DNA of 37,265 nt from Acidilobaceae archaeon (GTDB lineage: Archaea; Thermoproteota; Thermoprotei_A; Sulfolobales; Acidilobaceae): NCBI GenBank assembly GCA_026413755.1, contig JAOAKH010000012.1:1-37265 (forward strand). The letters run 5' to 3'. Position 1 is the stretch's first letter; the number at the start of each line of letters is the position of its first letter. Both the position numbers and the translations under genes were made by a program. The notes under the pieces were generated by a model, which ran no database searches, was not told the origin of the DNA, and saw only the letters and a list, made by a program, of their open reading frames with translations. This document shows positions 16,721 to 27,495 of the stretch, piece after piece.

Positions 16721-17317
16721 TTACCTCTTGATCCTCTCCAATAAGTGCTCGTGGAGCCTCCGCTCGCCCGTGATCTCGGGGTGGAAAGTTACGGCGATCG
16801 CGTTATCCTGCACCGCTGCCGCCCCCGCCTTGCCAAGCTGCGGGTGATCTACGTAGCCTATCATCCTGCTCCTCCCCCAAGCCTCCTCTATGATGGGAGC
16901 CCTGATGAAAGCTACCCTCATCCTCCCAATGCCCTCCAGCTCCACCTCAGCCACAAAGGACTCGCGCTGCCTGCCGAACGCGTTCCTCAGCACGCCTATG
17001 TCCATAACGCCCAGCAGCGGCTGTGAGGTCTCTCCCACGACGCGGTCCCTCACCCTCTTTGCCAGCAGTATAGCGCCAGCGCAAGTGCCGAGCGTGGGGA
17101 GGCCCTTCTCTATCATCTCTCTCAGCGGCTCGAGGAGGCCGGAGGCCTTAACGAGCTCGCCAATAGTTGTAGACTCGCCGCCCGGGATTATGATCCCGTC
17201 GATCCCCTGAAGGTCCTGGGGCCTCTTCACTAGCTTAGAGCTCGCCCCAAGCTCCCTCAGGATCTCGAGGTGCTCCAGCACGTCCCCCTGGAGCGCTAGG
17301 ACGCCAACTGTTACCAT
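16721..17317 (-). CDS. pdxT: PLP synthase glutaminase subunit PdxT
   Basis: A class I glutamine amidotransferase of 198 residues that releases ammonia from glutamine and passes it to PdxS for pyridoxal 5'-phosphate synthesis. The PGGEST loop (45-50), the nucleophile Cys79 in LGTCAG, and the His179/Glu181 pair in TFHPE complete the triad. The ATG overlaps the pdxS stop by one base (TAATG), so the subunits are translationally coupled. Confidence 0.97.
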   Translation of the reverse strand: MVTVGVLALQGDVLEHLEILRELGASSKLVKRPQDLQGIDGIIIPGGESTTIGELVKASGLLEPLREMIEKGLPTLGTCAGAILLAKRVRDRVVGETSQPLLGVMDIGVLRNAFGRQRESFVAEVELEGIGRMRVAFIRAPIIEEAWGRSRMIGYVDHPQLGKAGAAAVQDNAIAVTFHPEITGERRLHEHLLERIKR

Positions 17318-18324
17318 TACTCTCCCCTCACCTGCATCAGCTGCTCCGGCTTGAGGGTCCTGATGTCTATGCCCATCATGGAGGCCTTCTCAGAGATCAT
17401 CCTCTGAGCCTCTACTACGGTCTCAGGGTCGTCGTAGTGCGCTGTTGCGAGCACTATTGCCCTGGCCCTCCCCTCCGGATCTTGGCTCTTGAATATGCCG
17501 GAGCCCACGAAGATGCCGTCCGAGCCGAGCCACATCATGAGGGCCGCGTCTGCTGGAGTAGCTATGCCCCCTGCAGCAAAGTTCACCACGGGCAGCCTCC
17601 CTAGCCTTGCGGTGAGCAGCGCGAGCTCGTAAGGCACCTTGTTCTCCTTTGCATAAACCCATATGGCCTCGTAGTCCTTAGCTAAGTAGTAGCCCCTGAG
17701 GGTAGCTATGTCCCTGTTTACCAGCTTCATGTGCTTCACCGCCTCTGCGACGTTGCCCGTCCCGGGCTCGCCCTTGGTCCTTATCATAGAGGCCCCCTCG
17801 TAGATCCTCCTGAGGGCCTCGGGGAGGCTCCTAGCGCCGTTGACGAAGGGCGTCTTGAACTCCCACTTGTTTATGTGGCTCCTCTCGTCTACGGGCGTGA
17901 GAACCTCGCTCTCGTCTATTAGATCTACTCCGAGCTCCTCCAGCAGCCTTGCCTCCCCCGCGTGGCCTATCCTGCACTTGGCGGAGATGGGGATGGTGAC
18001 GCTGCTGGCTATGGAGAGTATTACGTTAGCGTCCGCGGTCCTCGCCACCCCTCCAGCCATCCTCACGTCATATGGCAGCTTGTCCAGGATCATCACACCT
18101 ACTGCTCCCGCGTCCTCAGCTATCTGCGCCTGCTTCTCGTTTGTTACGTCCATTATGACGCCTCCCTTGAACATGGAGATGAAGCCGTACTTCACTAGCG
18201 GCGTGGCCTCCTCTACCCTGAGCCCTCCCTCCTTCCTCTTGTCCCTCTCCTCTAGAAGCGCATATATGAGGTCCCTCAGCCTCTCTAGGTACGCATACGC
18301 ATCTACCAGCTTCACTCGCCTCAC
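17317..18324 (-). CDS. pdxS: PLP synthase synthase subunit PdxS
   Basis: Builds PLP from ribose 5-phosphate, glyceraldehyde 3-phosphate and ammonia. The 335-residue TIM barrel shows [10 protein letters not shown], the two catalytic lysines Lys116 (ISAKCRIGH) and Lys184 (RTKGEPGTG), [11 protein letters not shown], and the phosphate-binding [17 protein letters not shown]. It is about 35-40 residues longer than usual bacterial PdxS, mainly through an N-terminal charged helix. The GTG start follows GGAGATCG; a GTG three codons later is possible. The gene lies 43 bases downstream of a threonine-synthase-like regulator candidate on the same strand and has a 12-bp palindrome at its promoter. Confidence 0.97.
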
Positions 18325-18352
18325 CGATCTCCTAGCGCTTAAGGGGGATTAA

Positions 18353-18371
18353 GGCTTTATTGAACGTTCAA
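18353..18371 (-). promoter_or_regulatory. pdxS promoter with 12-bp palindrome
   Basis: The perfect palindrome TTGAACGTTCAA (18360-18371) overlaps the upstream gene's stop codon. On the minus strand it runs directly into CAATAAAGCC, a TATA-like element about 35 bases before the pdxS GTG. A protein bound here would cover BRE/TATA, so it is a candidate operator for pdxST. Confidence 0.5.
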
Positions 18372-19432
18372 CAGAGCCTGTAGAGCTTCACCCTCCTCTC
18401 CCCTTTCTCCACGATCTCATAGCATATTTCCCCCCTCTCCTCCATCTCCCTCACTGCCTTGTAAACGGCCCTCAGCGTGTATGCAGGCCTCTCCTTCCAG
18501 ATCTCGTAAGCAGTCTTGCTGCCCCCCTCCAGCGCCGAGAGCACGAGCTTCTTCACGGCGCTCCTCGCAGGCCTGCCGGGGGGCTTCGCGGCCACGGTGA
18601 TGACTGCAACGGAGTCGCCGAGCGAGGAAGCAACCGCATAGCCTATTGCTGCCAGCGGCTTCACGCTAAAGCCCTTTGCCGAGAGCCTGGCAAGGGTCTC
18701 GTAGACCTCCTCCCCAGAGATCGCCTCGACCCTTACCCTCAGGCCGGAGAGCAGCGGCGGCTCCCTCCCCTTCAAGGCAGCAGCGATAACCTCGTAGCTG
18801 CAGCCAGCGCCCGCTGCCTCCAGGTCCCTCAGGCCCTTGAGCAGGGAGAGCGCCAGGAGGCCGCTCTTTGCGGGAGCCACTATGCGGCTCTCCCGAGCCC
18901 CCCTCTCGCAGATCTCCAGCGCTATAGTCTTCAACCCCTCCACGCTCCAGGGGCTCAGGTAGCTCAGCCTCGGCGCGCTGCTGCTCGTGACCAGCTTAGC
19001 CCGCGAGAGCTCTGCCAGGTCCTCTGCCTCCAGGGCCAGCGGGTCGGGGGCTACTACTTCGGTCGCTACCCCCTCTAAGTACCTCACGAGAGACCTCGCG
19101 AAGTATGGCTCGTATGCTACTGACACCCTGCTCCACCCCGCGCTTAGGGCGTAGGAGGAGAGGACGGCAGAGGCTCTGTCTGCATATGAGCCCGTGGGGT
19201 TGAACCTCTCGTTCTTCACCCTAACCCCATCTACAGAGCTAAGCGGCGTGTTCCCCTCCCCGAGCGACCTCCGCTTTGAGAGCGTGGGGAGCATGCGCTT
19301 GAACCTCCATATGCCCCTCTCCCCCCTCTCTGGCCTGAAGAGGGGCTCCCAGAGCCTGAGGAAGAGGACCTCCCCGCAGCGGGGGCAGAGCTCCGCCTCC
19401 CCCCTCCAGCCGCACCTAGGGCACTCTAGCAA
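18368..19432 (-). CDS. Threonine-synthase-like pseudoenzyme with zinc ribbon and C-terminal winged helix
   Basis: 354 residues in three parts. Residues 4-19 form a CxxC...CxxC zinc ribbon like that of many archaeal threonine synthases. Residues about 55-280 follow the fold-type II PLP enzyme pattern: LGEGNTPLSSVDGVRVKNE, then FNPTGSYADRAS. In active enzymes the latter reads NPTGSFKDR, so the Schiff-base lysine is Ala84 here (codon GCA, 19181-19183), and the SSGN-type PLP loop is replaced by AYEP. Residues about 285-354 look like a winged helix-turn-helix with AYEIWKERPAYTLRAVYKAV and a basic wing. A catalytic role is unlikely; a ligand-sensing DNA-binding role is inferred. It lies immediately upstream of pdxS-pdxT. 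TTG start preceded by GGAGGCGC. Confidence 0.75.
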   Translation of the reverse strand: MLECPRCGWRGEAELCPRCGEVLFLRLWEPLFRPERGERGIWRFKRMLPTLSKRRSLGEGNTPLSSVDGVRVKNERFNPTGSYADRASAVLSSYALSAGWSRVSVAYEPYFARSLVRYLEGVATEVVAPDPLALEAEDLAELSRAKLVTSSSAPRLSYLSPWSVEGLKTIALEICERGARESRIVAPAKSGLLALSLLKGLRDLEAAGAGCSYEVIAAALKGREPPLLSGLRVRVEAISGEEVYETLARLSAKGFSVKPLAAIGYAVASSLGDSVAVITVAAKPPGRPARSAVKKLVLSALEGGSKTAYEIWKERPAYTLRAVYKAVREMEERGEICYEIVEKGERRVKLYRLC

Positions 19433-21179: not shown

Positions 21180-21491
21180 ATGGAGACGAAGGCGCTGGAG
21201 AGGCTCAGGAGGAAGGTAACCCTAGAGAACCTCTGGATGTACGTGGTGAAGATACTTGCAGAGGAGGGGCCGCTAAGGGGTTACGAGGTGAAGAAGAGGC
21301 TAGAGGAGCGCTACGGCATAAGGCCCGCCACGGTTACAGCCTACGTGGTCCTCTACAAGATGAGCAGGGAGGGGCTCATAGAGGCGGTTAGCTTGGGCGG
21401 GGACACGCTCTACAGGCCCACGGAGAAGGGGCTCAGGGCGCTGGAGGAGGCGAGGAAGATCATAGAGTGGGTGAGGAAGAACATAGAGTGA
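21180..21491 (+). CDS. PadR-like winged-helix transcriptional regulator
   Basis: 103 residues. After a short N-terminal helix, LWMYVVKILAEEGPLRGYEVKKRLEERYG and PATVTAYVVLYKMSREGLIE match the PadR winged helix, with the GYEV and Y.LL-type positions conserved; the wing reads GGDTLYRPTEKG. The C-terminal helix (EEARKIIEWVRKNIE) is suited to dimerisation. It is divergent from ino1 across a 69-base spacer with two near-identical palindromes, so it probably controls itself and ino1. The ATG appears leaderless: the TATA lies about 25 bases upstream. Confidence 0.85.
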   Translation: METKALERLRRKVTLENLWMYVVKILAEEGPLRGYEVKKRLEERYGIRPATVTAYVVLYKMSREGLIEAVSLGGDTLYRPTEKGLRALEEARKIIEWVRKNIE

Positions 21492-21574: not shown

Positions 21575-21901
21575 ATGGACCCTCGCAACGTAGGATCTAA
21601 AGAGTGTAGACATTCGCCAGAGAAGGCCTTCCTCCGCCAGCTGCTCCTTGCCCTGCAGGACGACCTGCGGCTATCTATAATCAAAGCGCTGGCTGAGCCG
21701 AGCGTGGACGGCCTCTCGTTCAGGGGACTGCAGCGGAGGCTAAAGGTGAACCACAAGCGCCTAGAGAGGGCCCTCCACGCCCTTACTACGGCCCAGCTAC
21801 TAGAGGTGTCGCTGATAAAGGTGGAGGACAGGACGTACAGGATATACAGGCTGAGGAACGGCACAAAGGAGCTCCTGAGCTCTCTTCACCACTGCGACTA
21901 A
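21575..21901 (+). CDS. Winged-helix DNA-binding protein
   Basis: 108 residues with an ArsR/MarR-like winged helix: DDLRLSIIKALAE, then LSFRGLQRRLKVNHKRLERALHALTTAQLLEVSLIK and a wing EDRTYRIYRL. The N-terminal 25 residues include HSPEKAFLRQ and two cysteine/histidine positions but no evident metal site. It lies just upstream of the three TasA-like genes and could regulate them; that is inference from position. The ATG is in a T-rich context without a clear ribosome site. Confidence 0.72.
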   Translation: MDPRNVGSKECRHSPEKAFLRQLLLALQDDLRLSIIKALAEPSVDGLSFRGLQRRLKVNHKRLERALHALTTAQLLEVSLIKVEDRTYRIYRLRNGTKELLSSLHHCD

Positions 21902-22016: not shown

Positions 22017-22541
22017 TTGTTGAGGAGAGTTGCTAGGGACAGAAGAGCGCTAGCTGCGGTGGCGCTGCTGGCCCTGCTGCTAGCGGGCGCGGCAGCCTTC
22101 GCCATCTTCCGCGAGACGCTCAGGGCTCCAATAAGGGTGGAGACGGGCAGGTTTGACTTCTCCATACGGAACGCGACGGTGGTCGATAACGAGCCAAAGG
22201 AGCCAGATATCGCCAAGTGCGAAGCAAAGATAGCGGGTGATCGCAAGAGCGTGAACATTACGATAAGCAACGCCTACCCGCTATACAACTGCACGGTCAC
22301 AGTGATCATGCAGAACGTGGGCACTATTCCTGGCAGGTTCGAAGTGAAGAACCTCATAGGGGAGCCGGCTGGGTGGCTCAACGTTACTTATGAGGACCCC
22401 CGCGAAGGCGTCATGATAGGTGTTAATCAGTCTGCTACAGCCAAGATCTTCATAAGAGTTAGAGACAAAGACGTTCCTGAAGGTGCGTCTAGCAGCTTCA
22501 TCGTTGAGTACGTCTTCCGTCAGTACCTGCCCTATCCATAA
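22017..22541 (+). CDS. TasA/CalY/AbpA-like exported fibre-subunit candidate 1
   Basis: 174 residues. A basic N-terminus (RRVARDRR), a hydrophobic signal (ALAAVALLALLLAGAAAFA), then IFRETLRAPIRVETGRFDFSIRNA. This follows the TasA/camelysin layout, in which a signal is followed by AxFxDxE-type residues, then a glycine and the first strand (aGxLdlxi). The mature part is strand-rich with several NxT/S sequons. TasA and the archaeal bundling pilin AbpA polymerise by donor-strand exchange; polymerisation here is inferred. TTG start preceded by GGTGAG. The first half is nearly identical in DNA to the next gene; the second half is not. Confidence 0.6.
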   Translation: MLRRVARDRRALAAVALLALLLAGAAAFAIFRETLRAPIRVETGRFDFSIRNATVVDNEPKEPDIAKCEAKIAGDRKSVNITISNAYPLYNCTVTVIMQNVGTIPGRFEVKNLIGEPAGWLNVTYEDPREGVMIGVNQSATAKIFIRVRDKDVPEGASSSFIVEYVFRQYLPYP

Positions 22542-22571
22542 AGCCTCCCTCTAACGGCCTGCCCCGCCCCC

Positions 22572-22600
22572 GAAGCCCCCCTTTTTCTTTGTTCTCTTTC
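22572..22600 (+). terminator. T-rich terminator candidate
   Basis: CCCCCCTTTTTCTTTG followed by TTCTCTTTC lies 30-60 bases after the stop of the first TasA-like gene. Pyrimidine/T tracts of this kind terminate transcription in Crenarchaeota; no hairpin is needed. A TATA-like AGATATATATTAAGC follows at about 22679-22693 for the next gene. Confidence 0.4.
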
Positions 22601-22678
22601 AGCCGCACTCAATTATCTCTCCTTACGGCTGTTCAGAACCCTCCAGCTCTTTATAAAGCGCCGTTGTGCCAGCTCTCA

Positions 22679-22693
22679 AGATATATATTAAGC
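22679..22693 (+). promoter_or_regulatory. TATA box for the second TasA-like gene
   Basis: AGATATATATTAAGC is a strong box A match about 65 bases before the ATG at 22753; the expected leader is about 40 bases. It shows that this copy has its own promoter. Confidence 0.5.
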
Positions 22694-22752
22694 TGTAGCA
22701 CATAGTCACAAAAACTCTTCTTCCTCCTTTCCTCTAAGAAGCGCGACCAGCC

Positions 22753-23250
22753 ATGAACAGGGTAAGGGACAAGAGAGTAATAGCTGCGGTCGCGCTGCTG
22801 GCCCTGCTGCTAGCGGGCGCGGCAGCCTTCGCCATCTTCCGCGAGACGCTCCAAGCACGCATAGAGGTGGCGACGGGCAAGTTTGACTTCTCCATACGGA
22901 ACGCGACGGTGGTCGATAACGAGCCAAAGGAGCCAGATATCGCCAAGTGCGAAGCAAAGATAGCGGGTGATGGCAAGAGCGTGAACATTACGATAAGCAA
23001 CGCCTACCCGCTGTACAGGTGCACGGTCAATCTGACCGTGGAGAACGTGGGCACTATCCATGGGAGGTACGAGAACGCCTCGATTGAAGTTCCTGCCGCG
23101 CTGTCGGTTAACGTGACAGCTCCTCCGGGCATCATAGCCCCCAAGCAGAGGGTCAACGTAGTCATCGTAGTCTCCGTAACCGGAGCTGCAGAAGAGGACA
23201 AGAGGTACAGTGCCTCCGTAGTGATGAGGTTCAGGCAGGCCCTGCCATAA
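22753..23250 (+). CDS. TasA/CalY/AbpA-like exported fibre-subunit candidate 2
   Basis: 165 residues, a paralogue of the gene at 22017. Residues about 10-90 are almost the same (LLALLLAGAAAFAIFRETL, GKFDFSIRNATVVDNEPKE), while the C-terminal part diverges (NASIEVPAALSVNVTAPPG). The signal peptide ends near AAAFA. The mature protein is strand-rich with many sequons (NAT, NIT, NLT, NAS, NVT), as expected of a surface glycoprotein. The ATG is a standard start; no strong ribosome site is seen. T-rich sequence at 23283-23300 may terminate it. Confidence 0.6.
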   Translation: MNRVRDKRVIAAVALLALLLAGAAAFAIFRETLQARIEVATGKFDFSIRNATVVDNEPKEPDIAKCEAKIAGDGKSVNITISNAYPLYRCTVNLTVENVGTIHGRYENASIEVPAALSVNVTAPPGIIAPKQRVNVVIVVSVTGAAEEDKRYSASVVMRFRQALP

Positions 23251-23357
23251 CAGGCCTAGCACGCCTACGACCTTTTCCCCACTCTCTTTTATTTTCCTGT
23301 TGCACGTTCTCACGCCCCCTTTTCTCCTCTGAGCGGCTCTTTTTCCCGCGAGCAAAA

Positions 23358-23804
23358 ATGGCCGGTCTGAGAGCCTCGATAGCATTGGTCCTCACAGCGA
23401 CCGCCCTCCTTTCCCTCCTCTCTGCCTCCCTCTTCCAGGAAACCCTCTCAGCCCCCGTGAAGGTTGGCACGGGCTACATAGACGTTGTCGTCGAGGGCGC
23501 AGAGGTGGAGGAAGGCGGGAACGTTTGCGCTGTCAATTCGTGGAAGGGCACGACGGTTTACGTGAACGTTAGCGGGCAAGCAGGAGATCGATGCCTCATA
23601 CGGGTCAGGGCGTATAACAACGGCACTGTGCCGGCCAGGCTAAAGAGCGTGGATCCGCGCGACGCGAGAGTCGTAGGAGCGGTCGAGCTCCCCGGCCCCG
23701 TGCTCCCCAGGCAGCAGGGAATAGTAAAGTTCTCCCTAACGCTCCGAGAAAACCTGTCGGCGCAGCTAGCGGTGAAGCTCAACTTCGCTATGGGGCCTCC
23801 GTAA
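23358..23804 (+). CDS. TasA/CalY/AbpA-like exported fibre-subunit candidate 3
   Basis: 148 residues, a more distant relative of the two preceding genes. The signal ASIALVLTATALLSLLSA is followed by SLFQETLSAPVKVGTGYIDVVVEGA, which aligns with IFRETLRAPIRVETGRFDFSI of copy 1. The rest differs, with two cysteines (NVCAVNSW and DRCLIRV) that could form a disulfide, as also seen in the paired cysteines of copies 1 and 2. The ATG follows GCGAGCAAAA with no ribosome site. Its position in tandem suggests a multi-subunit surface filament. Confidence 0.55.
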   Translation: MAGLRASIALVLTATALLSLLSASLFQETLSAPVKVGTGYIDVVVEGAEVEEGGNVCAVNSWKGTTVYVNVSGQAGDRCLIRVRAYNNGTVPARLKSVDPRDARVVGAVELPGPVLPRQQGIVKFSLTLRENLSAQLAVKLNFAMGPP

Positions 23805-23934: not shown

Positions 23935-26900
23935 GTGGCGGCGCTGATCTCTGCAAAATACTTAGGCCTCTGCCCCAACTGCGGCGGGCCCATAAGCTAC
24001 TCCAGGCTCTCCCGCGGGCTCCCCTGCGAGGCCTGCCTGCCGGAGCCGAGGGAGGGCTACGTTGAGGAGCTAAAGAGGGCAGGGAGGCTGAAGGGCCTCG
24101 GCTGGCTCAAGGCGCTGGAGGAGGAGGAGAGGGCCTTCCTGGAGTTCTTCCGCGCAAGGCTCGGCCTGGAGCCCTGGGGGGCGCAGAGGAGCTGGGCGAG
24201 GAGGCTGCTAATGCTCGAGAGCTTCGCCATAATAGCCCCCACAGGCGTTGGGAAGAGCACGCTGCTCATGGCCTACGCGGCCTTCAGGGCGCTCCAGGGC
24301 TGGAGAGCCCTCTACCTAGTGCCTACGGAGAACCTCGCAAGGCAAGTCTCTGAGAGGCTCAGGGGGCTGCACGAGGGCACAGTAGCATACTACTCCAGCC
24401 TGCCGAAGAGGGCTAGGGAGGAGGCGCTAGCCAGGATAGCTAGCGGGAACCTCGGCGTCCTCGTCGTCACCACGGGCTTCCTGGAGAGGAGGGCCCACGA
24501 GCTCCCCCTTTTCGACCTCGTGATAGTGGACGACGTGGACAGCCTGGTGAGGGACAGCAAGAACGTTGAGAGGGTGCTGAGGGCCCTCGGCTTCCGCGAG
24601 GAGACTATAGCTGTGGCGGCAGAGCTGGTGAGGCAGAGGCTGAGGCTCAGGAGGGCTAGGGCAGCCGGGGCGGGGGCGGAGAGGCTAGAGCTGGTGGTGG
24701 GGGAGCTGGAGGGGAGGCTCAGGAGGCTTATGGGCAGCGAGAGGGGAGGGCAGCTGGTAGTCGCGTCTGCTACGGGGAGGCCTAAAGGCCACAAGCACCT
24801 GATCTTCAGGGAGCTGCTGAACTTCGAGGTAGGCGGAGGAGGGGACTACGTGAGGAACGTGATAGACTCCTACGCTGCCGCGCAGGCAGAGGAGGCAGTT
24901 AGGGTGGCAAAGCTGCTCGGGAAGGGGGGCATAGTTTTCGTGAGCCAGTACTTGGGGAAGGCGTACGTAGAGAGGATAGCGCAGAGGCTGAGGGAGGAGG
25001 GGCTCAGGGCCTCCAAGGCCTTGGCGGGCTCCTGGAGGGGGGTGCTGGAGCTGGAGGGGGGGAAGGCAGACGTGCTGGTAACGGTAGCGAGCAGGTATGG
25101 CGTGGCGGTGAGGGGGCTAGATGCGCCTAGGGTAGTTAAGTACGTAGTCTTCGCTGGAGCCCCAGCCAGGAGGGTGAGGCTAGAGGACGCCCTCTCCTCG
25201 CCCCTCAGGCTGCTGCGGCTGCTGCTGCAGGCAAAGGAGGAGGGGAGCGAGGAGGGGGCGCGGCTGGCCTCGGAGGTCATGAGAGCGCTTGAGAGGGCAG
25301 AGCCCGAAGCCCTCATGGCGGCCTTGAGGGAAGGCGCCGAGGGGCAGCTGGCAGAGGCTGTAGAGCTGCTGAGGAGGGCTAAGGCCTGGGCCCTCGGCTG
25401 GGCTAAGGAGAGGCTGAGGGAGAGGGGGGAGGCGAGGGTGGGCACGATGCTCATAGCGCTGGAGGGGGAGCCCTACGCATACCTCCCCGACGCCATCACC
25501 TACCTGCAGGCAAGCGGGAGGGCCAGCAGGCTGCTGGAGGGCAGGATGACGCTAGGGCTAAGCGTCGTGGTGGAGCCGAGGGAGGAGCTCGTGAGGGCCC
25601 TTGAGGCAAAGCTCAGGGCCTTCGCGGACGTGAGGTTCTTGCGGCTGCAGGAACTAGACCTGGAGGCCGTGAAGGAGGAGCTAGAGGAGAGCAGGAGGGG
25701 AGGAGGGAGGGAGCTGAAGGTGAGGACGAGGCTGCTCATAGTTGAGTCCCCCACAAAGGCGAGGACCATAGGCTGGTTCTGGGGGAGGCCTGGGAAGAGG
25801 AGGGTGGGGAGGCTCACGGTCTACGAGACCTCTTACGTTGACGACGACAGCATAACCATATTGCAGGTGGCAGCCAGCAGGGGGCACCTCTTCGACCTGG
25901 TGGAGGAGCTGGAGGGCTCGAGGCACGGCGTGCTGGTGGAGGACGGCTCATATGTGCCGGTTTACGGGAGCATAAAGAGGTGCCTCTCCTGCGGAGCCCA
26001 GTACGTCTCTCGCCCGCGCTGCCCACGCTGCTCCTCCCAGGAGGCCCTCGACGCGCTCTCTACCGTTGAGGCCCTGCGGAGGCTTGCGCTCTCTGCGGAC
26101 GAGGTGGTGATCGCTACAGATCCAGACAGGGAGGGGGAGAAGATAGCCCTAGACGTCGCGCTGGCGCTCAAGCCCTACGCAAAGGCCGTGAGGAGGGCGC
26201 GCATATACGAGATCTCCAGGAGAGAGGTAACGAGGGCCATAAGGGAGGCAGGGGACGTGGACCTGAGGCTGGCAGAAGCGCAGATGGCCCGCAGGATAGC
26301 GGACCGCTGGATAGGCTACGAGCTGAGCGCCCTCGCGAAGCAAGCTTACGGCAAGGAGTGGCTGGGGGCGGGGAGGGTGCAGACCCCCGTCCTCGGCTGG
26401 GTGGTGGAGCGCTACAGGCACTGGAGCTCCTCCCAGCTCTACAAGGCCTGCCTGAAGCTGGCGGTGGGCTACAGGGTCTGCTTCTCCTCCCCAGACAGGA
26501 GGGAGGCAGAGAGGGCAGCCCTCTCTGCCGTCGTAGTGGAGAGGGTTACAAGGGAGGAGGCAACGCTCTCCCCCCCGCCGCCCTACTCCACAGATTCCAT
26601 GCTGTACGAGGCCTCCCTCAGGCTGGGCATGAGGGTTGAGGCGGCCATGAGGGTCGCGCAGGAGCTCTTCGAGGCGGGCCTCATAACTTACCACAGGACC
26701 GACTCGATCAGGGTCTCCTCTCAGGGGGCAGAGGTGGCCAGGGCTTACCTGGCGGGCAGGGGGCTCGAAGAGCTGTTCAGGCCTCGCAGCTGGAGCGAGG
26801 AGGGGGCTCACGAGGCCATAAGGCCCACGAGGCCCCTCGACCTCGAGGCCCTCGACAAGGCTGTGGCGGAGGGAACGCTGAAGCTGGGCATAAGGCTCAC

Positions 26901-27495
26901 AGAGAGGCACAGGGAGCTCTACGACCTCATATTCAGAAGGTTCATGGCCAGCCAGATGGCAGAGGCTAGGGCGCTGAAGGTCTCGCTGGAGCTCTCCGCA
27001 GCGGGGCTCAGGGCGAGCGCGGAGCTCACGGCAGCGCTCCTCTCGCCGGGCTTCGCGCTGCTCTACGGCCCGAGGCTTGAGCCCTGGGCCCTCTCTGTAA
27101 AGGAGGGGGACCAGCTAGAGGCAGCGGAGGCAACCGTTAGGAAGGGGAGCGCCGTGAGCCTCTACACTAGCGGCGAGCTGGTGAGGCTCATGAAGGAGAG
27201 GGGGATCGGGAGGCCCAGCACCTACCACAAGGCAATAGAGGCGAACAGGAGGCACGGCTACGTCGTGGAGAGCAAGAGGAGAGGGGCTATAGTGCCCACA
27301 AAGATGGGGATAGAGGTCTACTCGCTGCTGAGGAACAAGTTCCCCCTCTTCGTCTCGGAGGAGTACACGAGGGCACTCGAGGAGAAGCTCGACGAGATAG
27401 AGAGGGGAAAGAGCGCGGGGGAGCTGCTCGGCGAGCTCTGGAGCTCCCTAGCTCAGCTGGGCTCTAGGCCTTCTGAGGTTCCTCCTTCCTTATAA
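23935..27495 (+). CDS. rgy: Reverse gyrase
   Basis: Introduces positive supercoils, the hallmark enzyme of hyperthermophiles. The 1186-residue protein is the standard fusion. A zinc finger (Cys13, 16, 31, 34) precedes a SF2 helicase-like half with Walker A APTGVGKST (101-109) and DEAD-like VIVDDVD. A topoisomerase IA half starts at IVESPTKART (about 603), with a second zinc finger from Cys683 (CLSCG...CPRC), the acidic ATDPDREGEKI, and the catalytic Tyr919 in LITYHRTDS. Everything needed for activity is visible. The GTG start lacks a strong ribosome site. The 3' end overlaps rad50 on the other strand by 43 bases. Confidence 0.97.
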   Translation: MAALISAKYLGLCPNCGGPISYSRLSRGLPCEACLPEPREGYVEELKRAGRLKGLGWLKALEEEERAFLEFFRARLGLEPWGAQRSWARRLLMLESFAIIAPTGVGKSTLLMAYAAFRALQGWRALYLVPTENLARQVSERLRGLHEGTVAYYSSLPKRAREEALARIASGNLGVLVVTTGFLERRAHELPLFDLVIVDDVDSLVRDSKNVERVLRALGFREETIAVAAELVRQRLRLRRARAAGAGAERLELVVGELEGRLRRLMGSERGGQLVVASATGRPKGHKHLIFRELLNFEVGGGGDYVRNVIDSYAAAQAEEAVRVAKLLGKGGIVFVSQYLGKAYVERIAQRLREEGLRASKALAGSWRGVLELEGGKADVLVTVASRYGVAVRGLDAPRVVKYVVFAGAPARRVRLEDALSSPLRLLRLLLQAKEEGSEEGARLASEVMRALERAEPEALMAALREGAEGQLAEAVELLRRAKAWALGWAKERLRERGEARVGTMLIALEGEPYAYLPDAITYLQASGRASRLLEGRMTLGLSVVVEPREELVRALEAKLRAFADVRFLRLQELDLEAVKEELEESRRGGGRELKVRTRLLIVESPTKARTIGWFWGRPGKRRVGRLTVYETSYVDDDSITILQVAASRGHLFDLVEELEGSRHGVLVEDGSYVPVYGSIKRCLSCGAQYVSRPRCPRCSSQEALDALSTVEALRRLALSADEVVIATDPDREGEKIALDVALALKPYAKAVRRARIYEISRREVTRAIREAGDVDLRLAEAQMARRIADRWIGYELSALAKQAYGKEWLGAGRVQTPVLGWVVERYRHWSSSQLYKACLKLAVGYRVCFSSPDRREAERAALSAVVVERVTREEATLSPPPPYSTDSMLYEASLRLGMRVEAAMRVAQELFEAGLITYHRTDSIRVSSQGAEVARAYLAGRGLEELFRPRSWSEEGAHEAIRPTRPLDLEALDKAVAEGTLKLGIRLTERHRELYDLIFRRFMASQMAEARALKVSLELSAAGLRASAELTAALLSPGFALLYGPRLEPWALSVKEGDQLEAAEATVRKGSAVSLYTSGELVRLMKERGIGRPSTYHKAIEANRRHGYVVESKRRGAIVPTKMGIEVYSLLRNKFPLFVSEEYTRALEEKLDEIERGKSAGELLGELWSSLAQLGSRPSEVPPSL

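Follow-up and report, generated by a model that had tools for sequence, protein, structure and literature searches.

A protein encoded in a 37,265-nucleotide stretch of DNA from an Acidilobaceae archaeon (contig JAOAKH010000012.1; hereafter the window), which we call X, appears to be a pseudoenzyme transcription factor that controls the supply of vitamin B6. We place the probability of this reading, which is drawn from sequence comparison, at about 0.8. Alignments show that the ancestor of X, a threonine synthase, lost its PLP-binding lysine, and structure prediction shows that X gained a C-terminal winged helix. Downstream of the gene, on the same strand, lie pdxS and then pdxT (Table 1). Comparison across genomes gives strong support to the palindrome TATTGAACGTTCAATA, placed just ahead of the BRE/TATA box in target promoters, as the binding site of X, and the best reading by analogy is that X is the archaeal fold-type-II counterpart of bacterial PdxR.

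Table 1. Location of X, its domains, its neighbors and the candidate regulatory elements. Positions without a prefix refer to the window.
Feature	Position	Strand	Basis or remark
Gene X, Lys-less threonine synthase-like protein with C-terminal winged helix	18368..19432	-	354 aa, TTG start
Zinc ribbon C4, C7, C16, C19 of X	19376..19423	-	Sequence; Zn_ribbon_3 17.6 bits, below cut-off
N78-R86 NPTGSYADR, Ala84 codon at the PLP-lysine position	19175..19201	-	Alignment to 6cgq and 2zsj
C-terminal winged helix of X, residues 292-354	18371..18559	-	AlphaFold2; hhalign 98.6% to X2 winged helix
Candidate operator TGTTGAACGTTCAATA	18358..18373	-	Overlaps X stop codon, just before pdxS
Putative BRE/TATA-like element AAGCCTTAAT of the pdxS promoter	18348..18357	-	Composition of 44 aligned sites
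pdxS, PLP synthase lyase subunit	17317..18315	-	NCBIfam PRK04180, 452 bits, above cut-off
pdxT, PLP synthase glutaminase subunit	16721..17317	-	TIGR03800, 190 bits, above cut-off
MFS and APC permeases	L275:1150-2367	-	Directly downstream of palindrome
MFS and APC permeases	L271:995-2173	-	Directly downstream of palindrome
MFS and APC permeases	L210:1557-2927	+	Directly downstream of palindrome
MFS and APC permeases	L274:934-2364	-	Directly downstream of palindrome
Class-V aminotransferase, genome G014	L272:1109-2269	+	Palindrome 44 bp upstream

A threonine synthase fold without the PLP lysine

The window copy of X (P0001) is encoded on the minus strand; the original prediction gave no strand. 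Its AlphaFold2 model, computed with 27 homologues, has a pLDDT of 92.3 and a pTM of 0.78. The best Foldseek matches to this model are all threonine synthases (probability 1.00, TM 0.56-0.65), and the Pfam PALP profile matches X above its cut-off (48 bits). X shares the overall fold, the zinc ribbon and the EGxTP, NPTG and EGxKTI motifs with the fold-type-II enzyme ThrC, and the ribbon residues C4, C16 and C19 are at least 90% conserved within the X family. In contrast to ThrC, the catalytic lysine is missing and a winged helix has been added. The motif N78-P-T-G-S-Y-A84-D-R86 aligns with NPTGSFKDR of the solved threonine synthases 6cgq and 2zsj, which places Ala84 at the position of the Schiff-base lysine. 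The alignment contains no SSGN/STGN loop in X, where the corresponding stretch reads VAYEPYFARSL. The GNxGN phosphate loop is cut down to x-x-[ST]-G, and a shortened segment connects it to the EPSSA motif. The general fold, the EGLKTI helix and Thr279 persist. The proposal that X is threonine synthase-like and lacks both the PLP lysine and an SSGN-type loop is thus borne out by the alignment and the fold search. The window genome (G000) also encodes an ordinary Lys-bearing protein of the threonine synthase type with an NPSGSFKDR motif and an SSGN loop (L282), which speaks against X as the threonine synthase of the cell.

X could still be an active PLP enzyme if a lysine elsewhere had taken over the catalytic role; the PALP score lies above the Pfam cut-off, and Lys73 and Lys168 are invariant. 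However, both lysines also occur in ordinary threonine synthases, in the VKxE segment before NPTG and in the EGxKTI helix, and are therefore not replacement lysines. The loss of the SxGN and GNxGN elements, the shortened segment before the EPSSA motif and the Lys-bearing relative in the same genome also argue against activity, which makes this explanation highly improbable.

Relatives of X were sought in 60 related genomes and in GTDB contigs, and a profile search covered 229 genomes of the class. Full-length relatives were recovered from MAGs of Acidilobaceae, Sulfolobales, Desulfurococcaceae, Ignisphaera and Thermosphaera, and the X clade is present in about 50 hot-spring archaea of the Sulfolobales/Desulfurococcales type. 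The family is cleanly set apart in the profile search: all full-length members exceed 360 bits and, leaving aside broken X fragments, no other protein reaches 180. None of 48 X-clade proteins bears a lysine at the catalytic position, which is occupied by A, S, T, V, I, M or G and preceded by Tyr, not Phe. The loss is therefore not a mutation of a single genome, and the pseudoenzyme status proposed for the window copy extends to the whole clade.

The last 65 residues of the model comprise three helices (292-301, 308-314 and 320-332) and two strands (336-343 and 346-353), which form the predicted winged-helix tail with a pLDDT of about 87-92. This result agrees with the original prediction, which had named structure prediction as a check on its winged-helix reading of the last 70 residues. 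A flexible linker modelled at low confidence (residues 284-289) connects this domain to the body. The helix-helix-helix-wing pattern resembles that of PadR/TrmB/ArsR-type winged helices, but the TrmB and PadR matches are weak, every HTH score in Pfam lies below its cut-off and the fusion partner is unrelated. No GntR match was found in the Pfam search.

Reading of 118 threonine synthase-like proteins separated 33 with the lysine and no winged helix from 85 with a winged helix and no lysine. Exceptions were not encountered, and the loss of the lysine and the winged helix, whose co-occurrence the original prediction had proposed to check, go together in 85 of 85 cases. X is a single clade (support 100), and the remaining Lys-less proteins fall into two groups, X2a and X2b, in which the lysine is replaced by Arg, Tyr or Phe and by Ile, Leu or Met, respectively. 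By hhalign, X and X2 share a homologous winged helix; AlphaFold2 also predicts one in X2a, and the X2 member L137 exceeds the Pfam cut-off for HTH_5. The SDGN, GSG and TGHGLK motifs are invariant or nearly so in X2a, which argues that X2a lost essentially only the lysine of the PLP cradle, whereas X lost more. Given the missing SxGN loop and the reduced phosphate loop, PLP binding by X is not assured, its pocket being more eroded than that of X2a.

The best NCBIfam match for X is PRK05638 (NF004170), named 'threonine synthase', at 92 bits against a cut-off of 421, which leaves X outside this family. A PRK05638 member in genome G053 (700 bits, above the cut-off) resembles X in combining a winged helix with a missing lysine (NPTGSFRDR). 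PRK05638 falls within one of the two X2 groups; it differs from X in that it retains SDGN, GSGLT and TGHGLK and precedes an ECF transporter operon, not pdxST. Within this NCBIfam 'equivalog', the Lys-to-Arg change and the winged helix occur in G053 and in Desulfurococcaceae-type relatives (L121-L140, e.g. L137:5618-6925, minus strand), and in these genomes the gene lies upstream of the ECF transporter operon. The name 'threonine synthase' is probably wrong for PRK05638, and the proteins so annotated are probably not enzymes.

Gene neighborhood and the candidate operator

X, pdxS and pdxT lie on the same strand in 29 of 48 X loci, with gaps of 9-69 nt in 28 of these, and the operons occur in both orders, X-S-T and S-T-X. 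The open reading frame called for the window pdxS begins at 18324; a GTG at 18315 with GGTGA upstream (18313-18324) yields the MKLVD N-terminus of most relatives. At the N-terminus, the PdxS proteins linked to X are longer than the generic family by about 35 residues. An ECF transporter operon (S, A and T) directly follows the X2 genes, both X2a and X2b. The ECF-S component belongs to PF07155, and its closest relative of known structure is HmpT (4hzu_S), which reportedly prefers pyridoxamine as substrate (PMC4860826). The aligned Glu41 is retained in ECF-S and His84 is not. Across 229 genomes, pdxS and ECF-S avoid each other (23 genomes with both, 76 and 87 with a single one, 43 with neither; p 3.6e-11, a value that ignores phylogeny). 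A neighbor-based function for X in pdxS-less genomes (acs, macro-domain and HAD genes) was dropped, as these neighbors are not conserved.

The palindrome TATTGAACGTTCAATA was first spotted by eye upstream of pdxS and afterwards tested on other genes and genomes. It is common to the pdxS upstream regions of the S-T-X operons, where it abuts the TATA box, and in 44 aligned sites its spacing from an A+T-rich TATA-like element is fixed. The window site contains a 12-bp perfect palindrome, TTGAACGTTCAA, at 18360-18371, and no other site in the whole 1.12-Mb genome comes within one mismatch of the 14-mer. At a threshold of at least 13 of 16 positions, 16 of 29 upstream regions match the palindrome, compared with 0.045 expected from shuffles. 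Only the specific palindrome is significant; a generic count of dyads in the upstream regions (118 vs 92.75 shuffled) falls inside the shuffle range.

The site follows the presence of X. A close match before pdxS or ECF-S was found in 24 of 50 genomes with X compared with 1 of the 179 that lack it (p 1.3e-17), and, among genomes with pdxS, in 22 of 36 with X compared with 1 of 74 without (p 9.7e-13); these Fisher tests treat the genomes, most of which are incomplete MAGs, without correction for phylogeny. In X-S-T operons, the palindrome lies between X and pdxS and was not found upstream of X itself, and the site therefore tracks the target gene and not X. It also precedes pdxS where X lies at another place in the genome or on a different contig (G161, G156, G083 and G082). 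Where pdxS is missing, the palindrome is found before ECF-S (G043 and G129), and in G166 it precedes both genes. In those genomes of the genera g5 and g10 that have X but neither pdxS nor the ECF transporter, it lies 37-48 bp from the start codon of permease genes, homologous MFS permeases in 6 genomes, APC permeases in 4; this position makes these permeases candidate vitamin B6 transporters. The class-V aminotransferase of G014 has pyridoxamine-pyruvate transaminase as its best NCBIfam match, below the cut-off (239 bits vs 600). Eleven X genomes have neither pdxS nor ECF-S, and no clear B6-type target was found in four of them (G128, G138, G157 and G162). Close palindromes in pdxS-less X genomes were also observed before a radical-SAM gene (G042, L219 about 1500-1515) and before a gene for an ABC solute-binding protein (G157, L257 about 2147-2162). 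G193 has the palindrome before pdxS (L260:2838-2853), yet X was not found in this genome. The pdxS gene of G193 is interrupted by a frame change, which may reflect a faulty assembly; alternatively, X may have been lost.

A different dyad, TTAAAGn4AACTTTAA, occupies the same place in all 11 X2a operons tested (shuffled mean 0.085). The ECF operons of X2b (L173-L185) carry another conserved upstream element, roughly ATWGTGAA-N4-ATAGTGA direct repeats, and TACTTCGATTA-type repeats occur before ECF-S in f3 genomes (L188, L198, L200 and L201).

Linkage alone does not prove binding, and the window has two small winged-helix genes in the vicinity of X (21180-21491 and 21575-21901). Another transcription factor might therefore bind the palindrome, in which case X would be no more than a pseudoenzyme linked to it, such as a carrier of PLP or a PdxST partner. 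This seems quite unlikely, as the site accompanies X even where the two are unlinked, X has a winged helix of its own and related proteins with another recognition helix pair with another operator. The suggestion that X is a DNA-binding protein gains support from a clade-specific palindrome at the promoters of pdxST and of B6-uptake-type genes.

Proposed regulation of vitamin B6 supply and comparison with PdxR

As a B6 regulator, X would bind the palindrome as a putative dimer at target promoters. These targets would be pdxST in PLP-making organisms and, where pdxST is absent, the HmpT-like ECF transporter, MFS/APC permeases and, once, a pyridoxamine-pyruvate transaminase-like enzyme. The signal for X would be PLP or a different B6 vitamer, recognized by the degenerate pocket with no Schiff base, and ligand binding would shift the DNA affinity of X such that synthesis or uptake is fitted to need. 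Where its gene lies downstream of pdxST, X would be a member of its own regulated operon. Archaeal activators use positions just upstream of BRE/TATA. Since the candidate site occupies this place, activation by X when B6 is low, as with bacterial PdxR, is slightly favored over repression.

The ligand is probably a B6 vitamer. X might instead regulate the B6 genes in response to an amino acid or a phosphorylated intermediate bound in the old pocket, or to the PdxS/PdxT proteins; the PLP cradle is strongly altered, while the fold, the EGLKTI helix and Thr279 are kept. We consider such a signal rather unlikely, given that the targets are genes of B6 synthesis and of the B6-uptake type in distant genomes and that X2a, with a linked function, has every pocket motif except the lysine.

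Bacterial PdxR, which belongs to MocR, a subfamily of the GntR regulators, is encoded near pdxST, and its regulon covers the synthesis, salvage and transport of B6 (PMC5320631). Apo-PdxR activates pdxST with PLP as the anti-activator, and MocR regulators are stated to be absent from Archaea (PMC5320631). X resembles these proteins in joining a sensor domain derived from a PLP enzyme to a winged helix, and in its linkage to pdxST or B6 transport genes and a site at their promoters. The likeness on an archaeal fold-type-II scaffold is closer than the original prediction knew, because the X gene sits in the pdxST operon. However, the MocR sensor is a fold-type-I aminotransferase and its helix an N-terminal GntR domain, whereas X has a fold-type-II threonine synthase body, a C-terminal non-GntR helix and no lysine. 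X would thus work like PdxR without being a member of its family. Searches of the open-access literature found no description of threonine synthase-like transcription factors, none of an archaeal threonine synthase that bears a winged helix or HTH, and none of a regulator of vitamin B6 genes in Archaea.

X, X2a and X2b likely constitute a previously unrecognised archaeal superfamily of transcription factors for B6 homeostasis, each with its own operators and with pdxST or B6-uptake targets. This superfamily would have arisen independently of MocR, would sense without a Schiff base and would name new transporter candidates (HmpT-like ECF, MFS and APC). If true, a PLP enzyme has become a B6 transcription factor twice, in bacteria starting from fold type I and in archaea starting from fold type II, and the archaeal version gave up the covalent PLP anchor. 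X would also supply a defined candidate operator, a regulon open to testing and, for pdxST-less archaea, candidate B6 transporters.

Two further features of the window lie on the plus strand. Three tandem paralogous proteins of a secreted type (174, 165 and 148 aa) with a common N-terminal hydrophobic segment are encoded at 22017-23804, and a helicase-topoisomerase fusion of 1186 aa at 23935-27495 looks like a reverse gyrase.
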